From: a virus
Direction: 5' to 3' (one strand)
Virus record (IMG/VR): IMGVR_UViG_3300043544_000172
Span: 1 to 22,648 of that record
Length of the DNA stretch: 22,648 bases
Below are positions 4,550 to 22,648 of this stretch, one piece after another. The notes beneath the pieces were generated by a model. It did not search any database. It was not told where the DNA came from and was given only the letters and a program-made list of their open reading frames with translations. The position numbers were made by a program, and so were the translations under genes. The first letter of the stretch is position 1, and each line of letters opens with the position of its first letter.

Positions 4550-7280
4550 GGCCGTCTTCCAACGCCAGGAACTCCAGGCCCCGCACCACGATGCGCCCAG
4601 CGGCCCACTCGTCTAGGGCCTCCACTACCTCTCGGGCCACGGCCTTGGGATCCCGGGCCCCGTCCACGGTGATGTTCACCACCACACTCCTTTCCGCTTT
4701 GACCTGAGGGGCGCTGAGGGTGGGCCCCTCCATCCGAATAGGTGGGGAGGTAGACGTGGACGGGGTTACGCGGGGCAAGGCGGTGACCATCCGGAAGGCG
4801 AGAGGTCTCACCGATGCCATAGGGTCAAGCAGAACGACTCGGGGAGCTTCCACACGAGGAGCCACCGTGGGAACCTCTACCCGAGGAGCCACCACAGGGG
4901 TTTCCACCTGAGGCACGACTCGGGGAGCTTCCACACGAGGAGCCACCGTGGGAACCTCTACCCGAGGAGCCACCACAGGGTTTTCCACCTGAGGCACGAC
5001 TCGGGGAGCTTCCACACGAGGAGCCACCGTGGGAACCTCTACCCGAGGAGCCACCACAGGAGCCTCTACCCTAGGAACCACCGTGGGGGCTACCACTTCA
5101 GGCACTACCCGCTGAACAGAGGCCTCCATGACCCGAGCCACCGCCGGGACCATGGCAGTGGCCCCCAAAGTCAGACCCGCCATGGCCATCCGCCCGTAGT
5201 GGGCGAAGAGCCTGGAGGGTGAGCGCACCTGGAGCACGTTCTTCGCCCCCTGGGCCAGGGCCCCGGCCACCGTGGCCCCGGCCTCCCACACCCGCCGAAC
5301 CCCAGCGGTGACACTGGTGAGGGCCCGGAGAACGAGCTCACCGCCGGGCACCTTGGCCACCTCAGCCTTGATGGCCTCCAGCAGCTGGCTTCCTAACCCC
5401 TTTAGGCCCCCCACGATGCGGCCCGGAAGCCCTTTGAACCAGTCCACGATGGAGCTGACGACCCCGCCCACCGTGTCCCGCAGCTCCTGCCAAGCGCCCT
5501 TGGCCGCGGCCAGAACGCCCTGCCAGGTGAAGCGGGCCCTATCCGCCAGTGCGGAGAACCAGCCCGTGACCTTGGCCCAGGCCCCACTGGCCGCCTGGGC
5601 CACGCCATCCCAGGCGGACCTCGCCCACCCGGCCACAGCGTCCCACACCCCTCCAAGCCAGCTCTTGATCCGGTCCCAGTTTTTGACGATGAGATAGCCC
5701 GCCGCGATGGCCCCGCTTACCAGCCATCCCCACGGCCCCAGCCCCATGACGAGCCGCCCCAACCCTATGAGGATGCGAGGAAGAAAAGCCCGCAGGATGC
5801 CCCACGCCCCCATAAGGGCGCGGGGGAGAGAAGTCCTCAAAACGCCCCACACCTGAACCAGGGCCGGGCGAAGCCCAGGAAGCAGGCGCACGGCCCCCAC
5901 CCGCAGGAGCGCCGCGCTCAGCCGCAAAAGGGCACCAGGTAGGCCCAGGGTCAGAACGTTGAGGAGCTTCCAGGCCGCCACCAGCCCCAGAGCCGCCCCG
6001 GCCAGGCGGGTAAACCCTGAGGCCGCTCCCGCCGCCTGCGTCCCGGTGTCCCCGAGAGGACGCACCAGGCCGCTCACAAAGGCCAGGATGGGGCGCAGAT
6101 AGCCCCAGGCTTCTTGCATGATGGCGAAGGCGTCCTTGACCCCGGCCACAAACTCCCGCACCTGCGCCCAGGCGGCGCGAAGGGTGGGCCCCAACTGCCT
6201 GGCCCACCCCTTGAGCTGGTCCAGCCAGGCGGTGAGGGCGGGCTCTAGGGCCTTGGGGTCCGTGGCCTTGGCCAGGGGGCCGAACAGGCTCTGCACCCCA
6301 GCTCCGATGGCGCTCTCCAGTCCCGCCTTGAGCCGCTGGCCGAGGCTGGACGTGGTGTCGGTGATGGCCACGAGGTTCCGGAGGAGGTTTTCTAGGGGTG
6401 TAATCCGGATGTCTTTGAAAAACTCAAAAGGTCGGCTCCTGAGGGTGGACCACAGCCCCGTCAGGGTATCCGCAAACTGATCCATGAGGCCGCCTAACCG
6501 CCCGCCAGACACCGTGTCCCGGATGGCCTCCAGAACGGCCACGATGCCCAGGTCGGAAGACACGCGCCCGGCCTCTATAAACTTTCGGGCTTGCTGGGCT
6601 GTTACTCCCAGGCGGGCACCGATCCGCTCGTAGATTTTGGCCAGTGGGGCCCCAGCTTCGGCCAGCTGCATCAGTTCCTCACCCTGGATCCGACCCTTGG
6701 CACGGATCTGGGTCAGGGCCGTGATGATGCGATTTACAGCCTCCTGAGAGAACCCCTGCATGGCGGAGAGGTCGCCCACCCCTTTGAGGATGACGGGAAT
6801 CTCTACGGGTTTAAACCCGGCAATAGCCAGCCGTTTATAAGCGTCCACCACCTGTTGCGTGGTGAAGGGGGTCCGGGCGGCGAAGCGTGTGGCCTCCTCC
6901 AGGGCCTTGGCGGCGACCTCGCGGAACCCCAGAACGGTCCGGAGGGCCACCTCAGTGTTTTGCCGGAAGGTCACGGCGTCCAGCACCATCTTGGCCCCGA
7001 AGCCCACCACCCCCGCCGTCAACAAGCCGGGGAGGGAGGTGATCTGACGGACGGCCCAGCCCGCCGTCCCGGCCAGCCTGCGGTAGCCCCCTTCAACAGC
7101 GGAGAGACCCGTCAGCACCGACCCCACCCCGGTCAGGTACAGGCGGGGCAGGGCCGTCCTAACACTGGAGGCCCGAACGCCCTCCAGGGACTTCTGCACC
7201 CGGGTCAGGTCCGCCACGGCGGCCCGGATGCCCGCCACCTGGGCCTTGACCCGGAAGATCCACTCCAGGGCGTTATTCAT
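4542..7280 (-). CDS. Tail tape measure protein, 912 aa
   Basis: Longest gene in the window, located right after the tail assembly chaperone as in nearly all long-tailed phages. Residues about 85-260 match the tape-measure N-terminal domain (FRQNTEVALRTVLG, RFAARTPFTTQQVVDAYKRL, GRIQGEELMQLAEAGAPL). Residues about 430-530 are hydrophobic and may insert in the host membrane. Residues about 540-640 are Trp-rich helical segments (AWARSAWDGVAQAASGAW). A proline-valine repeat region follows (see repeat), then a short acidic C-terminus. Using the usual rule of roughly 1.5 angstroms per residue, the tail would be about 130-140 nm long. ATG at 7280 overlaps the chaperone extension stop by 8 bases. Confidence 0.92.
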   Translation of the reverse strand: MNNALEWIFRVKAQVAGIRAAVADLTRVQKSLEGVRASSVRTALPRLYLTGVGSVLTGLSAVEGGYRRLAGTAGWAVRQITSLPGLLTAGVVGFGAKMVLDAVTFRQNTEVALRTVLGFREVAAKALEEATRFAARTPFTTQQVVDAYKRLAIAGFKPVEIPVILKGVGDLSAMQGFSQEAVNRIITALTQIRAKGRIQGEELMQLAEAGAPLAKIYERIGARLGVTAQQARKFIEAGRVSSDLGIVAVLEAIRDTVSGGRLGGLMDQFADTLTGLWSTLRSRPFEFFKDIRITPLENLLRNLVAITDTTSSLGQRLKAGLESAIGAGVQSLFGPLAKATDPKALEPALTAWLDQLKGWARQLGPTLRAAWAQVREFVAGVKDAFAIMQEAWGYLRPILAFVSGLVRPLGDTGTQAAGAASGFTRLAGAALGLVAAWKLLNVLTLGLPGALLRLSAALLRVGAVRLLPGLRPALVQVWGVLRTSLPRALMGAWGILRAFLPRILIGLGRLVMGLGPWGWLVSGAIAAGYLIVKNWDRIKSWLGGVWDAVAGWARSAWDGVAQAASGAWAKVTGWFSALADRARFTWQGVLAAAKGAWQELRDTVGGVVSSIVDWFKGLPGRIVGGLKGLGSQLLEAIKAEVAKVPGGELVLRALTSVTAGVRRVWEAGATVAGALAQGAKNVLQVRSPSRLFAHYGRMAMAGLTLGATAMVPAVARVMEASVQRVVPEVVAPTVVPRVEAPVVAPRVEVPTVAPRVEAPRVVPQVENPVVAPRVEVPTVAPRVEAPRVVPQVETPVVAPRVEVPTVAPRVEAPRVVLLDPMASVRPLAFRMVTALPRVTPSTSTSPPIRMEGPTLSAPQVKAERSVVVNITVDGARDPKAVAREVVEALDEWAAGRIVVRGLEFLALEDGHA
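4835..5098 (-). repeat. 81-bp tandem repeats coding VExPxVxPx units in the tape measure gene
   Basis: Copies begin at 4835, 4916 and 4997, an exact 81-bp period. The first two copies differ by one base (a Thr/Asn change), and the third is identical for its first 64 bases and then decays towards 5098. Each 81-bp unit codes three 9-residue subunits such as VEVPTVAPR, VEAPRVVPQ and VENPVVAPR, so the array is hierarchical (27 bp within 81 bp). The near identity at the DNA level means recent amplification or homogenisation. The protein segment would be an extended Pro/Val/Arg stalk. Confidence 0.92.
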
Positions 7281-16870: not shown

Positions 16871-18150
16871 TATACACCACCCCGGAGCCCGCTCCAGCGC
16901 CCCGGCACCTTCAGAACCTGCCCGGTCCCCCTCGAGGCCCTCGCCGCGTCCAGGGCCAGGGCTAAGGCCATGACCAGGTCGTCGTGAAGCCCCTCGGGGG
17001 CGGAGTAGGCGTAGCCCCCCGAGGGTAGAGGGCGGGCCTCAAAGGCCCTTAGCTCGCCCAAGAGCTCGGCGTGGGGGTAGAGGAGGAGCTCCTGGGTCTC
17101 CAGGGCCGACTGGAGGCGCCCCACGAGGTTCTCCTTGGACCTGGTGCCCCGCCCGTCGTCCCTACCCCCGGTGATGCGGATGGGCCTCACCCGCGGCCAC
17201 TCGGCCCGGATGCCCTCCCAGGCGGCGTCCCCCACGCCGGTGGCGTCCACGTGGGCGTAGGCCTCGTAGCGGGCCAGGAGGCCCGCCACCTTCCGGGCGG
17301 TGAGGGTGTAGGAGAGCCCCCGCCACCTCTCCACCCGCACCAGCTCCAGCTGCGCCCCCAGGCGCAGGACCGCCACGGCGGTGTAGTCCTGGCTCCGGGC
17401 CAGGTCCACCCCGGCGGCGTAGCGCTCTCCCGGCCTCGGGTCCTCGGGGCCCTGGAGGAGGAGGGCGGCTTCCAAGGCGTCCTCGCTGAAGACCCGGCCC
17501 TCGGCGTCCACCCACTCGGCCAGGATCTCCTGGCGGTAGCGCTCCCGGGTCATGGTGGCGGCCATGCGGGCCAGCTCCTCCTGGGAGAGGAAGGGGTTGC
17601 GGTGGGAGGGCTCGTGGAAGTGGGCCCACGCCGGGTCGTCCAGGGTCAGGTTCCAGAGTTCATAGAAGGCGTTCCGCCCCTTGGGCGTGGACGCTATCCA
17701 GGCCGAGCCCAGGCGGTCCAAGAGGGTGGGGAGGATGGCCTCCTCCCAGACCCGTGCTAAACTGGGGGCGAAGGCGGCCTCGTCTATGATGGCGAGGTCA
17801 TAGGCCCTTCCCCTCCCTGGCACGTCCTTGGAGTCCAGGGACCAGAACTCTATGCGCCCCCCGGAAACGTAGCGGATGACGGGCTGGGGCCGCTCGGCGG
17901 CCCTGACCACCCCGGGCCTGGTTCGGCGCAGGAGCTCCTCGTAGGCCGGAGCTAGGAGGGAGTAGATGGGGGCGAACCAGCCCACCGCCTGCCCCCGCTC
18001 CGCCGCGGCCTGGGCCGCCAAACGGAGGAGGAGGGTCGTCTTCCCCCAGCGCCTCCCGCACCGGAGGATGTTGAACCGCTTGGCGGCCCCCACCACCTCC
18101 CGCTGGGCGGGGTGGAGGGGCGGAAAGACCAGGGGGATGACCCGCTTCAC
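16870..18150 (-). CDS. terL: Terminase large subunit, 426 aa
   Basis: DNA-packaging ATPase and nuclease. ATPase motifs: C-G-R-R-W-G-K-T-T (31-39, Walker A with the terminase-type Arg), L-A-I-I-D-E-A (119-125, Walker B with D123 and E124), and A-S-T-P-K-G (153-158, coupling motif). RNase H-like nuclease part: A-G-V-D-L (D249), D255, V-D-A-T-G-V-G-D (D302 and D308) and L-H-D-D-L-V-M-A (D390/D391). All key acids are present, so it should be active. Overlaps the small subunit by 4 bases (ATGA). Confidence 0.95.
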   Translation of the reverse strand: MKRVIPLVFPPLHPAQREVVGAAKRFNILRCGRRWGKTTLLLRLAAQAAAERGQAVGWFAPIYSLLAPAYEELLRRTRPGVVRAAERPQPVIRYVSGGRIEFWSLDSKDVPGRGRAYDLAIIDEAAFAPSLARVWEEAILPTLLDRLGSAWIASTPKGRNAFYELWNLTLDDPAWAHFHEPSHRNPFLSQEELARMAATMTRERYRQEILAEWVDAEGRVFSEDALEAALLLQGPEDPRPGERYAAGVDLARSQDYTAVAVLRLGAQLELVRVERWRGLSYTLTARKVAGLLARYEAYAHVDATGVGDAAWEGIRAEWPRVRPIRITGGRDDGRGTRSKENLVGRLQSALETQELLLYPHAELLGELRAFEARPLPSGGYAYSAPEGLHDDLVMALALALDAARASRGTGQVLKVPGRWSGLRGGV

Positions 18151-18482
18151 CCGTCCACTACCTTGAGCTCAACGCCCTCCAGGCTCACCTGCTCCACCCG
18201 CTCGGTGTAGCCCCGCTCCTTGCCGACGGTCTTCAGGACGAACATGACGGCCCAGGGCTTTCCCTGCAGGGCGGCCTGGATGAGGCGGCTCTCCACATCG
18301 TCCAGAATCTCGTCCCGGACCTCCCGCAGGAAGCCTTCCAGGCCGTGGCGCTGGATGGCGGCGTAGAGCCCCTGCCTGGTCACGCCCAGGGCCCGCGCGG
18401 CCACGGCCAGGACGCCCCGGGAGGCCCGGATGGCTTCCTCAACTTTCTTCTTGGTCAGCCTCTCCCTGGTCAGCTTTTTCAT
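18147..18482 (-). CDS. terS: Terminase small subunit-like HTH protein, 111 aa
   Basis: Directly upstream of the large subunit with a 4-base overlap. Residues about 12-45 form a helix-turn-helix (GVLAVAARALGVTRQGLYAAIQRHG), followed by a helical segment L-R-E-V-R-D-E-I-L-D-D-V-E-S-R-L and K-T-V-G-K-E-R-G-Y, all usual for small terminases, which recognise the packaging site and assemble into a ring. GGGAGGAGG ribosome site before the ATG at 18482. A regulator role is less likely because of the coupling to terL. Confidence 0.8.
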   Translation of the reverse strand: MKKLTRERLTKKKVEEAIRASRGVLAVAARALGVTRQGLYAAIQRHGLEGFLREVRDEILDDVESRLIQAALQGKPWAVMFVLKTVGKERGYTERVEQVSLEGVELKVVDG

Positions 18483-19546: not shown

Positions 19547-20224
19547 TCACGCCGCCTCTTCCCTGAATGCCAGCCCCCACGCCCGCCCGTGCCGGGCCAA
19601 AAGGCGGACCCACGGGCCTAGGTCCACCCACGGGTCCAGCCGGCTCACCCCGCGTCGGTTGCGGACGGCCAGGGCCACCAGCCAGGCCCGCCAGGCCCAG
19701 GCTTCGGCTTCGTTGGCCAGCTCCTCCTTCCTCGCTTCCCACTCCGGGTCCCCAAAGCGGCACGCGAAAAGGTGAGCCTCTCTGGAGCGGTGGGCCTGAG
19801 CCCACCGCTCCAGAGCCCTGACCTCTAGAGCCACGTGCTGACCCTCCTCCACGGCCTCCAGGAGGGCCGCCCAGGTGTAGCGCTCCAGGCCCCAGCGGAC
19901 GTAGCCCGAAAGCGCGTCGGTGAGGAGGCACCAGAAGGCGTAGGCCAGCCAGTAGGGCACGTTCCGCCCGATCTCCTCCTCCGCCTCAGCCCGCAGTTTG
20001 GCCTCGTAGGCCATGGCGAACTCCTCCCGGGCCTCGGGGGCGTTGTCCTGGGTGGTGATGAGGAAGTGGGCCAGGAGGTCCCGGTAGGCGTTCAGTTCCT
20101 CCCGGTGGCGGGCCAGGAAGGCTCGGGCGGCCTCGAAGTTCCCCACGAACTTGGGCCGCCCTCCCTCCACGGCGAGGGTCAGCCCCTCCTCGTCCAACGC
20201 CTTCACCAGCTCCGCCAGGCTCAT
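19547..20224 (-). CDS. TubC_N-like protein of unknown function, 225 aa
   Basis: Begins at ATG 20224 (GGGAGGTG ribosome site; ATGA overlap with helicase stop). Residues 1-50 (L-A-E-L-V-K-A-L-D-E-E-G-L-T-L, then A-R-H-R-E-E-L) look like a TubC_N-type docking domain, which also occurs at the ends of phage and plasmid replication proteins. The rest is helical, Trp- and Ala-rich (YWLAYAFWCLL near 105; WAWRAWLVALAV near 185). No catalytic motif is seen. Coupling to the helicase suggests a partner or loader, which is a guess. Confidence 0.7.
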   Translation of the reverse strand: MSLAELVKALDEEGLTLAVEGGRPKFVGNFEAARAFLARHREELNAYRDLLAHFLITTQDNAPEAREEFAMAYEAKLRAEAEEEIGRNVPYWLAYAFWCLLTDALSGYVRWGLERYTWAALLEAVEEGQHVALEVRALERWAQAHRSREAHLFACRFGDPEWEARKEELANEAEAWAWRAWLVALAVRNRRGVSRLDPWVDLGPWVRLLARHGRAWGLAFREEAA

Positions 20225-21846
20225 ACCCACACCTCCCCCCAGTACTCGTCCACCCTCGGCCACGGGTAGCCGTGCGGGGCCTTCCCCTGGTCCATGAGGA
20301 CCACCCTCTTTCTCGCCCTGGTCACCGCCACGTACATCAGGCGGTGAAGGGCGTCCGGGTTCTCCCTGAGCCCCTCCGCCGCCTTGCGGGTGTAGCCGGG
20401 CCAGACGTAGACGTGGTCGGCCTCACCGCCCTTCACGGAGTGGACGGTGCCGATCCACACCAGGGGCTTCCCGTGGAGGACCAGGTCCGGGTGGCGCGTG
20501 GCCACCATGAGGGCGCTCCGCATTCCCTTCGGGGCGCTCCCCAGCAGGTGGTCCAGGAGCCACCCCGGGTCCCTGGCCGCGATGTAAGGGCGGTGCTCCG
20601 GCCTAAAGACGCCCCATATAGGGTGGTCGTCGGGGACAACCGCCTCGTCCGGGAGGACGGCGATAGCCTCCAGAGCCTCCGCCTTCTTTCCCAAGAAGGG
20701 GACCCGGGTCAAATACTTGGCCCAGGCCTTCACGTCCTTCCCTAGGCGCTTCGGGAAGAGGAAGGCCCGGGCCTTCTGCCACCCGGCCCGCTCGTCATCG
20801 GGGAAGAGGTTGAGACTGTGGCGTTTGGGGGCGTAGGGGTTCCCCCACGGGAGGCCCTTCTCGGCCAGAACGCCCTTCAGGTCCTCCAGGTAGTAGCGCG
20901 TGGTGGCCAGGAAGAGCACGCTCTCCCCCCGCCGAATCGCCCCCTCGGCGTCCTCCACGGCCCAGCGGGGGGCATCGGGGGGCACGCGCAGGTAGGCGAC
21001 CTCACCCTCCTCCGGCCGGGGGCGGTAGCGCTTCTCGGCCCGGTTCCGCGCTCTCCCGATGATAGACTCGGCCAGCGCCTGGACCTTCGCCGGCACCCGG
21101 TAGGACTGGGAAAGCACGATCTCCCGGTCCACCGGGAAGGAGAGGAAGCTGGTGCCGTCCGCCCCCAGGTGGGCGTAGATGCTCTGGTCGTCGTCCCCCA
21201 CCAGCGCCGTGTAGCGGGTTCCGCTTGACCACTTCTTTACCAGCTCCAGCTGGAGGGGCGTGAGGTCCTGGGCCTCGTCCACGAAGAGGTAGTCCACGCC
21301 CAGGCCCGGCAGGACGAGGGCTCTCTCCAGCATGGCCGGGAAGTCCACCAGCCCCTCCTGGCTCATCCACGCCCTCCAGCGGGTCCAGAAGGCCCGCACC
21401 TCCTCGGGCCACTGGGCCATGGGCCGCATGGCGTTGCGGAGGTAGACCAGCTGGTCGTAGATCTGGTCGCCGGGGAGGCCTCCTTCCTCCTCGCTGTAGG
21501 GGTCCAGGGCGTCCACGGTGTTCCCGCGGTGGTCCACCCGGGGCGTCAGCCGCCACGTGTCCGGGACCTGGGCGTTCCATTGGGCGATCCGCTCCTTAGT
21601 GAGGGCCAGCTCGGGGTTGCCCAGGGCCCGGTAGGCCAAGGAGTGGATCGTGCCCAGGTTGTCCCGAGGCACCTGCCCGCCGATCCTAGCGGTAAACTCC
21701 TTGAACGCCGCCCTGGAGAAGGACGCCACGGCAATCGCCTCTCCAGGCACCCCACTTGTGACAAGCTTCTCCACTTCACCGGCCAACCAGGTAGTTTTCC
21801 CGGTGCCGGGCGGCCCGTAGACCCTCACGCGGTTAGAACCAGTCAT
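20221..21846 (-). CDS. UvrD/Rep-like superfamily 1 helicase, 541 aa
   Basis: All major SF1 motifs are present: G-P-P-G-T-G-K-T-T (11-19, Walker A), V-D-E-A-Q-D (189-194, motif II), G-D-D-D-Q-S-I-Y (217-224, motif III), Q-S-Y-R (247-250, motif IV), G-T-V-H-S-V-K-G (466-473, motif V) and M-Y-V-A-V-T-R-A-R (504-512, motif VI). It should unwind DNA 3' to 5'. It is shorter than host UvrD (about 700 residues). I use ATG 21846 (GGGGGGTGG before it), 14 bases inside the upstream gene; the 21 residues upstream of it look non-coding. It lies 27 bases from the mirror-symmetric repeat array. Confidence 0.92.
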   Translation of the reverse strand: MTGSNRVRVYGPPGTGKTTWLAGEVEKLVTSGVPGEAIAVASFSRAAFKEFTARIGGQVPRDNLGTIHSLAYRALGNPELALTKERIAQWNAQVPDTWRLTPRVDHRGNTVDALDPYSEEEGGLPGDQIYDQLVYLRNAMRPMAQWPEEVRAFWTRWRAWMSQEGLVDFPAMLERALVLPGLGVDYLFVDEAQDLTPLQLELVKKWSSGTRYTALVGDDDQSIYAHLGADGTSFLSFPVDREIVLSQSYRVPAKVQALAESIIGRARNRAEKRYRPRPEEGEVAYLRVPPDAPRWAVEDAEGAIRRGESVLFLATTRYYLEDLKGVLAEKGLPWGNPYAPKRHSLNLFPDDERAGWQKARAFLFPKRLGKDVKAWAKYLTRVPFLGKKAEALEAIAVLPDEAVVPDDHPIWGVFRPEHRPYIAARDPGWLLDHLLGSAPKGMRSALMVATRHPDLVLHGKPLVWIGTVHSVKGGEADHVYVWPGYTRKAAEGLRENPDALHRLMYVAVTRARKRVVLMDQGKAPHGYPWPRVDEYWGEVWV

Positions 21847-22648
21847 CGTCCACCCCCCCTTGGGCCGGTGGCGTTGCCGCGTTGCCACTTCCCTCAAAAG
21901 AAGTGGCAACGGGGTTTATGCCGTTCAGGACACGCTTTTCGCCCCCCGTTGCCACATTGCCACTTGATTTTTCTTTTTCCGGGTCCCTACCCCGGGAATC
22001 GTCACGAAGTGGCAATGTGGCAACACCCTCCTTTTTCTCCGTGCTGGACGGGGCGGAAAGCGTTGCCACTTCTCGGTGGAGAAGTGGCAACGTGGCAACA
22101 CCTGTGAAATCTGTCTCGGCCTCGTCCTGCCCGTTCAGTAGGGAAGCGGGCAGGGCCCAGTAACGCCTGTGCACGTACCCGCTGGACCTCAGCGCCAGCC
22201 GGACGCTTTCCGCCCCATACCGGCGCAGGAGGTAGGCCATCTCCCGGGGGCGGATCCGCTGCCCCCGGCTCTCCGTGCTCCACTTGGCCAAGTGGGTGGC
22301 GTGCACTAGGGTAGCGCCACCATGTTTCACCGGGAGCTCCATGCGCACGTGGCTCTTCCAAGCCGCCTCGTCCTCCTCCTCCGCCGGCTTGTAGGCGTCC
22401 AGGTAGGCCTCCAAGAGGCTCACCAGCCAGTCCAGCTCCTCGGCCTCCGGGGCCTCGTAGTCCACGGTGGCCTGGGCGATGACCTGGACGACGATGTCCC
22501 AGTAGCGCTGGTCCACCCAGCGCAGGAGGTGATGCGTGGCCTGGAAGACGCTGAGGCGGAGGCGCCGCTGGTTGAGCAGGGCTTCCGCCGTGCCCAGCTC
22601 CACGTGCTGTCCGTTCACCACGGCCACGTACCGGGGCGGCGTGGAGAG
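21833..22648 (-). CDS. Unrecognised early protein, 5' end outside window, hosting the repeat array
   Basis: The frame is open to the right edge (codons for L-S-T-P-P-R-Y before GTG 22627), so the gene probably starts beyond the window; GTG 22627 would give 264 residues. The first 175 or so residues seen are a mixed alpha domain (LNQRRLRLSVFQATHHLLRW, later IRPREMAYLLRRYGAESVRLAL, which could be a winged helix). The last 90 residues are hydrophilic and contain V-A-T-L-P-L repeats forced by the DNA array. A replication initiator with an origin in its own gene, as in lambda O, is an attractive but unproven reading. It overlaps the helicase by 14 bases. Confidence 0.65.
   Translation of the reverse strand, partial: LSTPPRYVAVVNGQHVELGTAEALLNQRRLRLSVFQATHHLLRWVDQRYWDIVVQVIAQATVDYEAPEAEELDWLVSLLEAYLDAYKPAEEEDEAAWKSHVRMELPVKHGGATLVHATHLAKWSTESRGQRIRPREMAYLLRRYGAESVRLALRSSGYVHRRYWALPASLLNGQDEAETDFTGVATLPLLHREVATLSAPSSTEKKEGVATLPLRDDSRGRDPEKEKSSGNVATGGEKRVLNGINPVATSFEGSGNAATPPAQGGVDDDWF
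21873..22099. repeat. Mirror-symmetric array of ten GTTGCCAC words (putative origin or operator)
   Basis: Forward words start at 21873 (GTTGCCGC), 21881, 21948, 21956 (ATTGCCAC) and 22062. Reverse words (GTGGCAAC) start at 21903, 22009 (GTGGCAAT), 22017, 22084 and 22092. Seven are exact and three have one mismatch. The order is >> < >> << > <<, and every word has a partner at the same distance from 21986. Nested palindromes result: 21880-21911 (12-bp arms), 21948-22024 (18-bp arms) and 22061-22092 (14-bp arms). The middle has a T-rich run (21967-21978) and a CCGGG/CCCGG hairpin. Repeats read directly; role inferred. Confidence 0.9.

Follow-up and report, generated by a model that had tools for sequence, protein, structure and literature searches.

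In phage-inducible islands (PICIs; for example SaPI and EcCI), where the gene order is pri-rep-ori, short iterons stand in two sets on either side of an A/T-rich middle, and the origin follows the initiator gene directly on its 3' side (PMC6092414, PMC7581432). This origin segment supports plasmid replication (PMC6092414), and the initiator Rep is said to bind it as two hexamers (PMC7581432). Sites of a related kind are known from other replicons. The crr and ori regions of phage P4, of which crr lies just 3' of the primase-helicase gene, are built of 8-bp type I iterons, some direct and some inverted, and the P4 alpha protein binds its repeats by a winged helix (PMC4234260). Lambda ori is formed by four 19-bp inverted repeats that bind O dimers; it sits inside the initiator gene O beside an A/T-rich region, and a second replication gene follows downstream (PMC5043065). 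In the pRN1/BIP-1 group, the gene for a PrimPol-type protein with a C-terminal winged helix is directly followed by a dyad element, the sequence of which is poorly conserved between conserved flanks (PMC4234260).

The DNA analysed here (22,648 nucleotides in all; hereafter the window) is a tailed-phage fragment with Baseplate_J, tape measure, portal, terminase and major head genes. By analogy, the array that it carries most likely follows the plan of the two-sided PICI origins: mirrored sets of sites around an A/T-richer middle lie in the 3' end of a primase-type gene in Thermus phages, or directly 3' of it in the Meiothermus phage MMP7. Because this layout matches that of PICIs, we infer the same role, with the array-bearing gene, P0001, as the presumed initiator gene. 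An initiator with a C-terminal DNA-binding domain and a primase in the operon would also be common to both systems (PMC6092414, PMC7581432). There are clear differences, however. The PICI initiator Rep is a helicase, whereas P0001 lacks a recognised helicase domain and has a UvrD-like SF1 neighbour; PICIs are satellites that use a helper virion, whereas the hosts of the array are Thermaceae tailed phages with their own head and tail genes; and the array is mostly inside the gene, with a strict mirror geometry and an added palindrome. The P4 sites differ in sequence, spacing and symmetry, with scores of 156 and 134 on the template described below and a dyad at chance level, and no homology was detectable between P4 alpha and P0001. 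Lambda shares the position of its sites within a gene, yet its 19-bp repeats contrast with the 8-bp words found here. Finally, pRN1 has no iterons and uses an SF3 helicase; in the window a hairpin is possible, but the words are conserved and the spacers between them unpaired.

The array occupies the last third of P0001. The first-pass annotation had described ten 8-bp words in 227 bp that form five mirror pairs around one centre, in a frame that is the 3' end of a minus-strand gene immediately preceding a gene for a UvrD-like helicase, and all of this was reproduced (Table 1). Seven of the ten words are exact copies of GTTGCCAC and three carry one mismatch. With up to one mismatch allowed, the other 22.4 kb of the window contain 18 matches, so that about 0.2 would be expected per 227 bp, as compared with the ten seen. 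The order of the words across the array is >> < >> << > <<, and the outer coordinates of all five pairs add up to 43972 (21873+22099, 21881+22091, 21903+22069, 21948+22024 and 21956+22016). An independent scan returned the same best dyad centre, with 65 of 112 positions complementary versus a maximum of 52 in 100 shuffles. Resolved by element, the symmetry in the window amounts to 39/40 positions in the words, 8/11 in the palindrome and 7/22 in the centre. Since it is confined to these elements and the spacers match at chance level (12/40), a simple inverted duplication is ruled out, and the earlier idea that the whole block is an old one has to be given up. A GC-skew scan, which is uninformative with almost all genes on one strand, showed no switch at the array.

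Table 1. Coordinates in the window of the array, its elements and the genes around it.
Feature	Position	Strand	Remarks
UvrD-like SF1 helicase gene	20221..21846	-	likely ATG 21844-21846; overlaps the P0001 end by 14 nt
P0001, array-bearing gene	21833..22648	-	start beyond window end; 306 aa in relative L008
C-terminal tail, encoded across the array	21836..22129	-	predicted disordered, pLDDT ~33
Word 1 (outer pair), GTTGCCGC	21873..21880	+	word match, template fit
Word 2, GTTGCCAC, adjoining word 1	21881..21888	+	word match, template fit
Word 3, lone inverted word	21903..21910	-	word match, template fit
Palindrome-like element, CGTTCAGGACA	21922..21932	.	half-coordinates 50-60; near CGTCCWGGACG; mirrored position constant across lineages
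Word 4 (inner pair), GTTGCCAC, 75 bp from word 1	21948..21955	+	word match, template fit
Word 5, ATTGCCAC	21956..21963	+	word match, template fit
Central gap with T/A run, candidate melting region	21964..22008	.	45 bp; local GC
Word 6, ATTGCCAC	22009..22016	-	word match, template fit
Word 7, GTTGCCAC	22017..22024	-	word match, template fit
Mirror copy of the palindrome, CGTGCTGGACG on +	22040..22050	.	21922+22050 = 43972
Word 8, lone inverted word, other half	22062..22069	+	word match, template fit
Word 9, GTTGCCAC	22084..22091	-	word match, template fit
Word 10, GTTGCCAC	22092..22099	-	word match, template fit
Predicted winged-helix DNA-binding domain of P0001	22154..22330	-	strands/helices at L008 residues 142-200
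Wing of the predicted winged helix	22169..22189	-	changes along with the array between Riverbug and L033

In the relatives, which are Thermus and Meiothermus phages and prophages, the word order and the spacing within each half are conserved while the word sequence changes. The relatives retain the array, so that the refutation proposed by the first-pass annotation, a protein kept without its repeats, did not come true. Three close IMG/VR contigs (L008-L010) are identical to the window in word and spacing. The nearest named relative, Thermus phage Riverbug (PMC11437467), has no GTTGCCAC; it carries ten RTAGTCAG-type words in the order and spacing of the window. For scoring, we used a half-array template with plus-strand words at 0 and 8, a minus-strand word at 30 and plus-strand words at 75 and 83, mirrored, with the start and the gap left free. 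The window, L008-L010, Riverbug, L021, L032, L033 (a genome of the class Deinococci) and L025 (a Meiothermus MAG) reached 234-342 of 360, against 118-148 for 20 shuffles; L025 fits the template least well, its lone inverted word being one base off. The word type is RTTGCCAC, RTAGTCAG or CTAGTCAC/ATAGTCRG depending on the lineage, and each has changed in concert at all copies.

The Meiothermus phages MMP7, MMP17, L022 and L024 did not fit the exact template (145-150) and were then scored by a looser dyad test, in which the dyad was significant (57/112 in MMP7 and 64/112 in L024; null maximum, 52). Their words are divergent and of the form TGTGACA, two of them 75 bp apart. In these phages, the P0001 homologue ends before the array, which falls in a small ORF overlapping both neighbours. 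In MMP7 (L011 3052-3276) this ORF has 75 aa and an oxidoreductase annotation without support; it is open in 5/5 Meiothermus loci checked and is perhaps kept for translational coupling. When IMG/VR was scanned with the window's word pair as a DNA pattern, arrays were found in the known relatives only and all other matches were single pairs; the L025-type word pair gave four hits, each with a single match. No array lies beside the helicase in the distant UvrD/primase phages L013, L014 and L034-L036.

Besides the words, each half contains an 11-bp palindrome near CGTCCWGGACG, which keeps a fixed mirrored position although the words change. In the window, Riverbug and MMP7, the two copies are placed on the array's own centre, and between lineages they are 77-86% identical, as opposed to 36-51% for the spacers. 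CGTCCWGGACG-like sequences occur fairly often in genomes this rich in GC, so the argument is the fixed mirrored position, not rarity. The inverted match noted earlier between the flanks near 21921 and 22041 is a separate palindrome-like element. Between the halves, GC over 60 bp drops to 0.50 versus 0.68 for the contig, which is in the lowest 0.7% of 60-bp windows. The gap measures 45 bp in the window group as against 32 bp in the other lineages, Riverbug, L025 and L033 among them. The T-rich run and small GC hairpin that had been placed at the centre do lie inside the gap, but the relatives' gap, 13 bp shorter, is without that hairpin.

The structure prediction for the folded part of P0001 is fairly confident (pLDDT 86.6, pTM 0.67) and shows, at the end of that part, strands and helices arranged as in a winged helix. 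Fold searches of the PDB gave weak winged-helix matches, none of them confident, and a sequence search of the PDB gave no match; nor did P0001 match any PHROG, NCBIfam or O family model. The family does align to residues 317-481 of the primase of another phage, L034 (hhalign 96.5%, E 9e-10), which carries AEP and PriCT_1 domains, and the phrog_21866 primase is a further basis for equating P0001-type proteins with a primase C-terminal half. By profile comparison, then, P0001 is homologous to the C-terminal half of a PrimPol-type primase. The homologous gene in Riverbug is annotated as a primase, and in MMP7 a Prim-Pol gene is directly upstream of the P0001 homologue. No hexameric helicase was recognised beside the array, whereas the known two-sided origins use one.

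A 208-aa protein, well conserved in the group, is encoded upstream of the P0001 homologue (L008 3509-4132; L006, which is Riverbug, 27938-28564). A weak PriCT_1 match was obtained with the Riverbug copy only; the L008 and L025 copies had no match, and profile comparison with the primases tried showed no link. It may be the degenerate other half of a split primase.

A natural exchange may connect the wing with the words. Riverbug and L033 are 96.3% identical before the wing and 96.5% after the array, but 72.2% over the wing and array; within the divergent stretch, most of the wing-to-tail sequence and one palindrome are unchanged. L025, whose protein is only about half identical, has the word of L033, and a wing Trp is common to these two and absent from Riverbug. 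This covariation supports, but does not prove, recognition of the words by the winged helix, because the lineages are few (about five available) and the difference between Riverbug and L033 may be a single recombination tract. Constraint also appears at the level of DNA. In the window group, 7.5% of sites vary in the words and 4.5% in the palindromes, compared with 20% in the spacers and 13.9% in the folded domain; among third codon positions, 2/24 vary in the words versus 40/173 in the domain. All these counts are small. The word starts occupy all three reading frames.

Judged from these comparisons, the array is very likely the docking site of the P0001 protein, and it is probably a replication origin of the phage, for which we propose it as a candidate. 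The explanation that we favour, and hold with a good deal of confidence, is a cis-acting array read by the winged-helix primase part encoded in its own gene, most likely as an origin. Among the roles raised by the first-pass annotation, iterons of a phage origin in the initiator gene are best supported, since the geometry is conserved with changing words, the wing covaries with them and the site is 3' of a primase-type gene; a partition site and an mRNA operator fit worse.

A different kind of origin, resembling that of pRN1/BIP-1, would have the 230-bp dyad extrude as a large hairpin (inner stem 18-22 bp, loop ~30-41 nt, just 3' of the primase gene), the structure of which is recognised by the primase. 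The strand indeed folds far better than shuffles (z of -8.3 in the window and -9.4 in L025), both sides have changed in 29/62 pairs of the consensus fold, and pRN1 depends on a stem-loop (stem of 21 nt, loop of 58 nt) situated 3' of the gene for its PrimPol-helicase (PMC4234260). For such a structure complementarity alone would suffice, yet all ten words have a common sequence, even where they stand in tandem; mismatches occur between some mirror words of L008, L025 and Riverbug; and the spacers, in Riverbug (13/40) as in the window, are complementary at chance only. Because the word sequence is shared and the spacers are unpaired, protein binding to duplex words is favoured and the hairpin appears improbable. 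Slightly less probable still is an operator, through which the P0001 protein, bound to the array, would repress or otherwise control its own operon or the helicase gene, acting on DNA or mRNA. The array's place inside an operon, directly upstream of the helicase start, and the strong mRNA fold predicted over it would suit this role, but ten sites in 227 bp with a strict two-sided dyad in a transcribed gene are unusual for operators, and the palindrome and A/T-rich centre are left unexplained.

Sites of the parS type, too, are typically clusters of short words in both orientations, which would agree with a centromere-like partition site of a plasmid-like prophage. We consider this very unlikely: the covarying partner is a primase-type protein, and the Riverbug annotation, as far as annotation goes, names no ParA or ParB and includes an integrase. 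Least credible of all is that the repeats serve the peptide, or moved in as a mobile palindromic element. The reading frame is open across the whole array in Thermus phages, as a role in the peptide would have it; against this, the words fall in three frames, the tail is predicted to be disordered, amino acids vary freely with the words kept (seen in part), and the dyad is outside the gene in Meiothermus phages. Nor were copies found elsewhere among 111 Deinococci genomes, contrary to what the first-pass annotation had expected of a mobile element.

Under the favoured origin reading, the predicted winged helix of P0001, taken as a separately encoded C-terminal primase half, would bind the ten words in two sets of five that mirror each other, and a second factor would bind the palindrome in each half. 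The mirrored complexes would hold the A/T-richer centre between them, which would open; the UvrD-like helicase, once loaded, would together with the primase and the host polymerase set up bidirectional forks. That no stop codon interrupts the frame across the array probably serves to let ribosomes run on to the overlapping start of the helicase gene. More tentatively, the array could stand for a distinct origin class, a possibility that we raise with some reserve, in which a helicase-free primase subunit reads a rigid iteron dyad and passes the melted centre to a UvrD-like SF1 helicase, the wing and array forming one short exchangeable cassette that would let closely related phages switch replicon specificity.

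For a group of thermophilic phages, the array is a specific origin candidate that can be put to the test, and the natural exchange of wing and array is a ready-made specificity experiment. It is also an example of a geometrically strict DNA signal maintained within coding sequence. If our reading is true, the array would be an instance of such an origin in complete phages and with another kind of helicase.

Riverbug (PQ109080) has a second, unrelated array at ~23049-23200, inside Riverbug_39, composed of GTTCACC/GGTGAA words in both orientations that resemble the P4 type I iterons (TGTTCACC). In the Thermus phages Cumys and Lalka, proteins related to Riverbug_39 carry annotations for replication initiation or as O-like proteins. 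The main origin of Riverbug could lie at this in-gene array instead.

Elsewhere in the window, a Fis-family HTH protein (PF02954) is encoded at 18147-18482, immediately before the gene for the large terminase and thus in the place expected for a small terminase. In addition, the tape measure gene contains direct coding repeats at 4840-5090, with GGAGCC-containing units ~81 bp apart.
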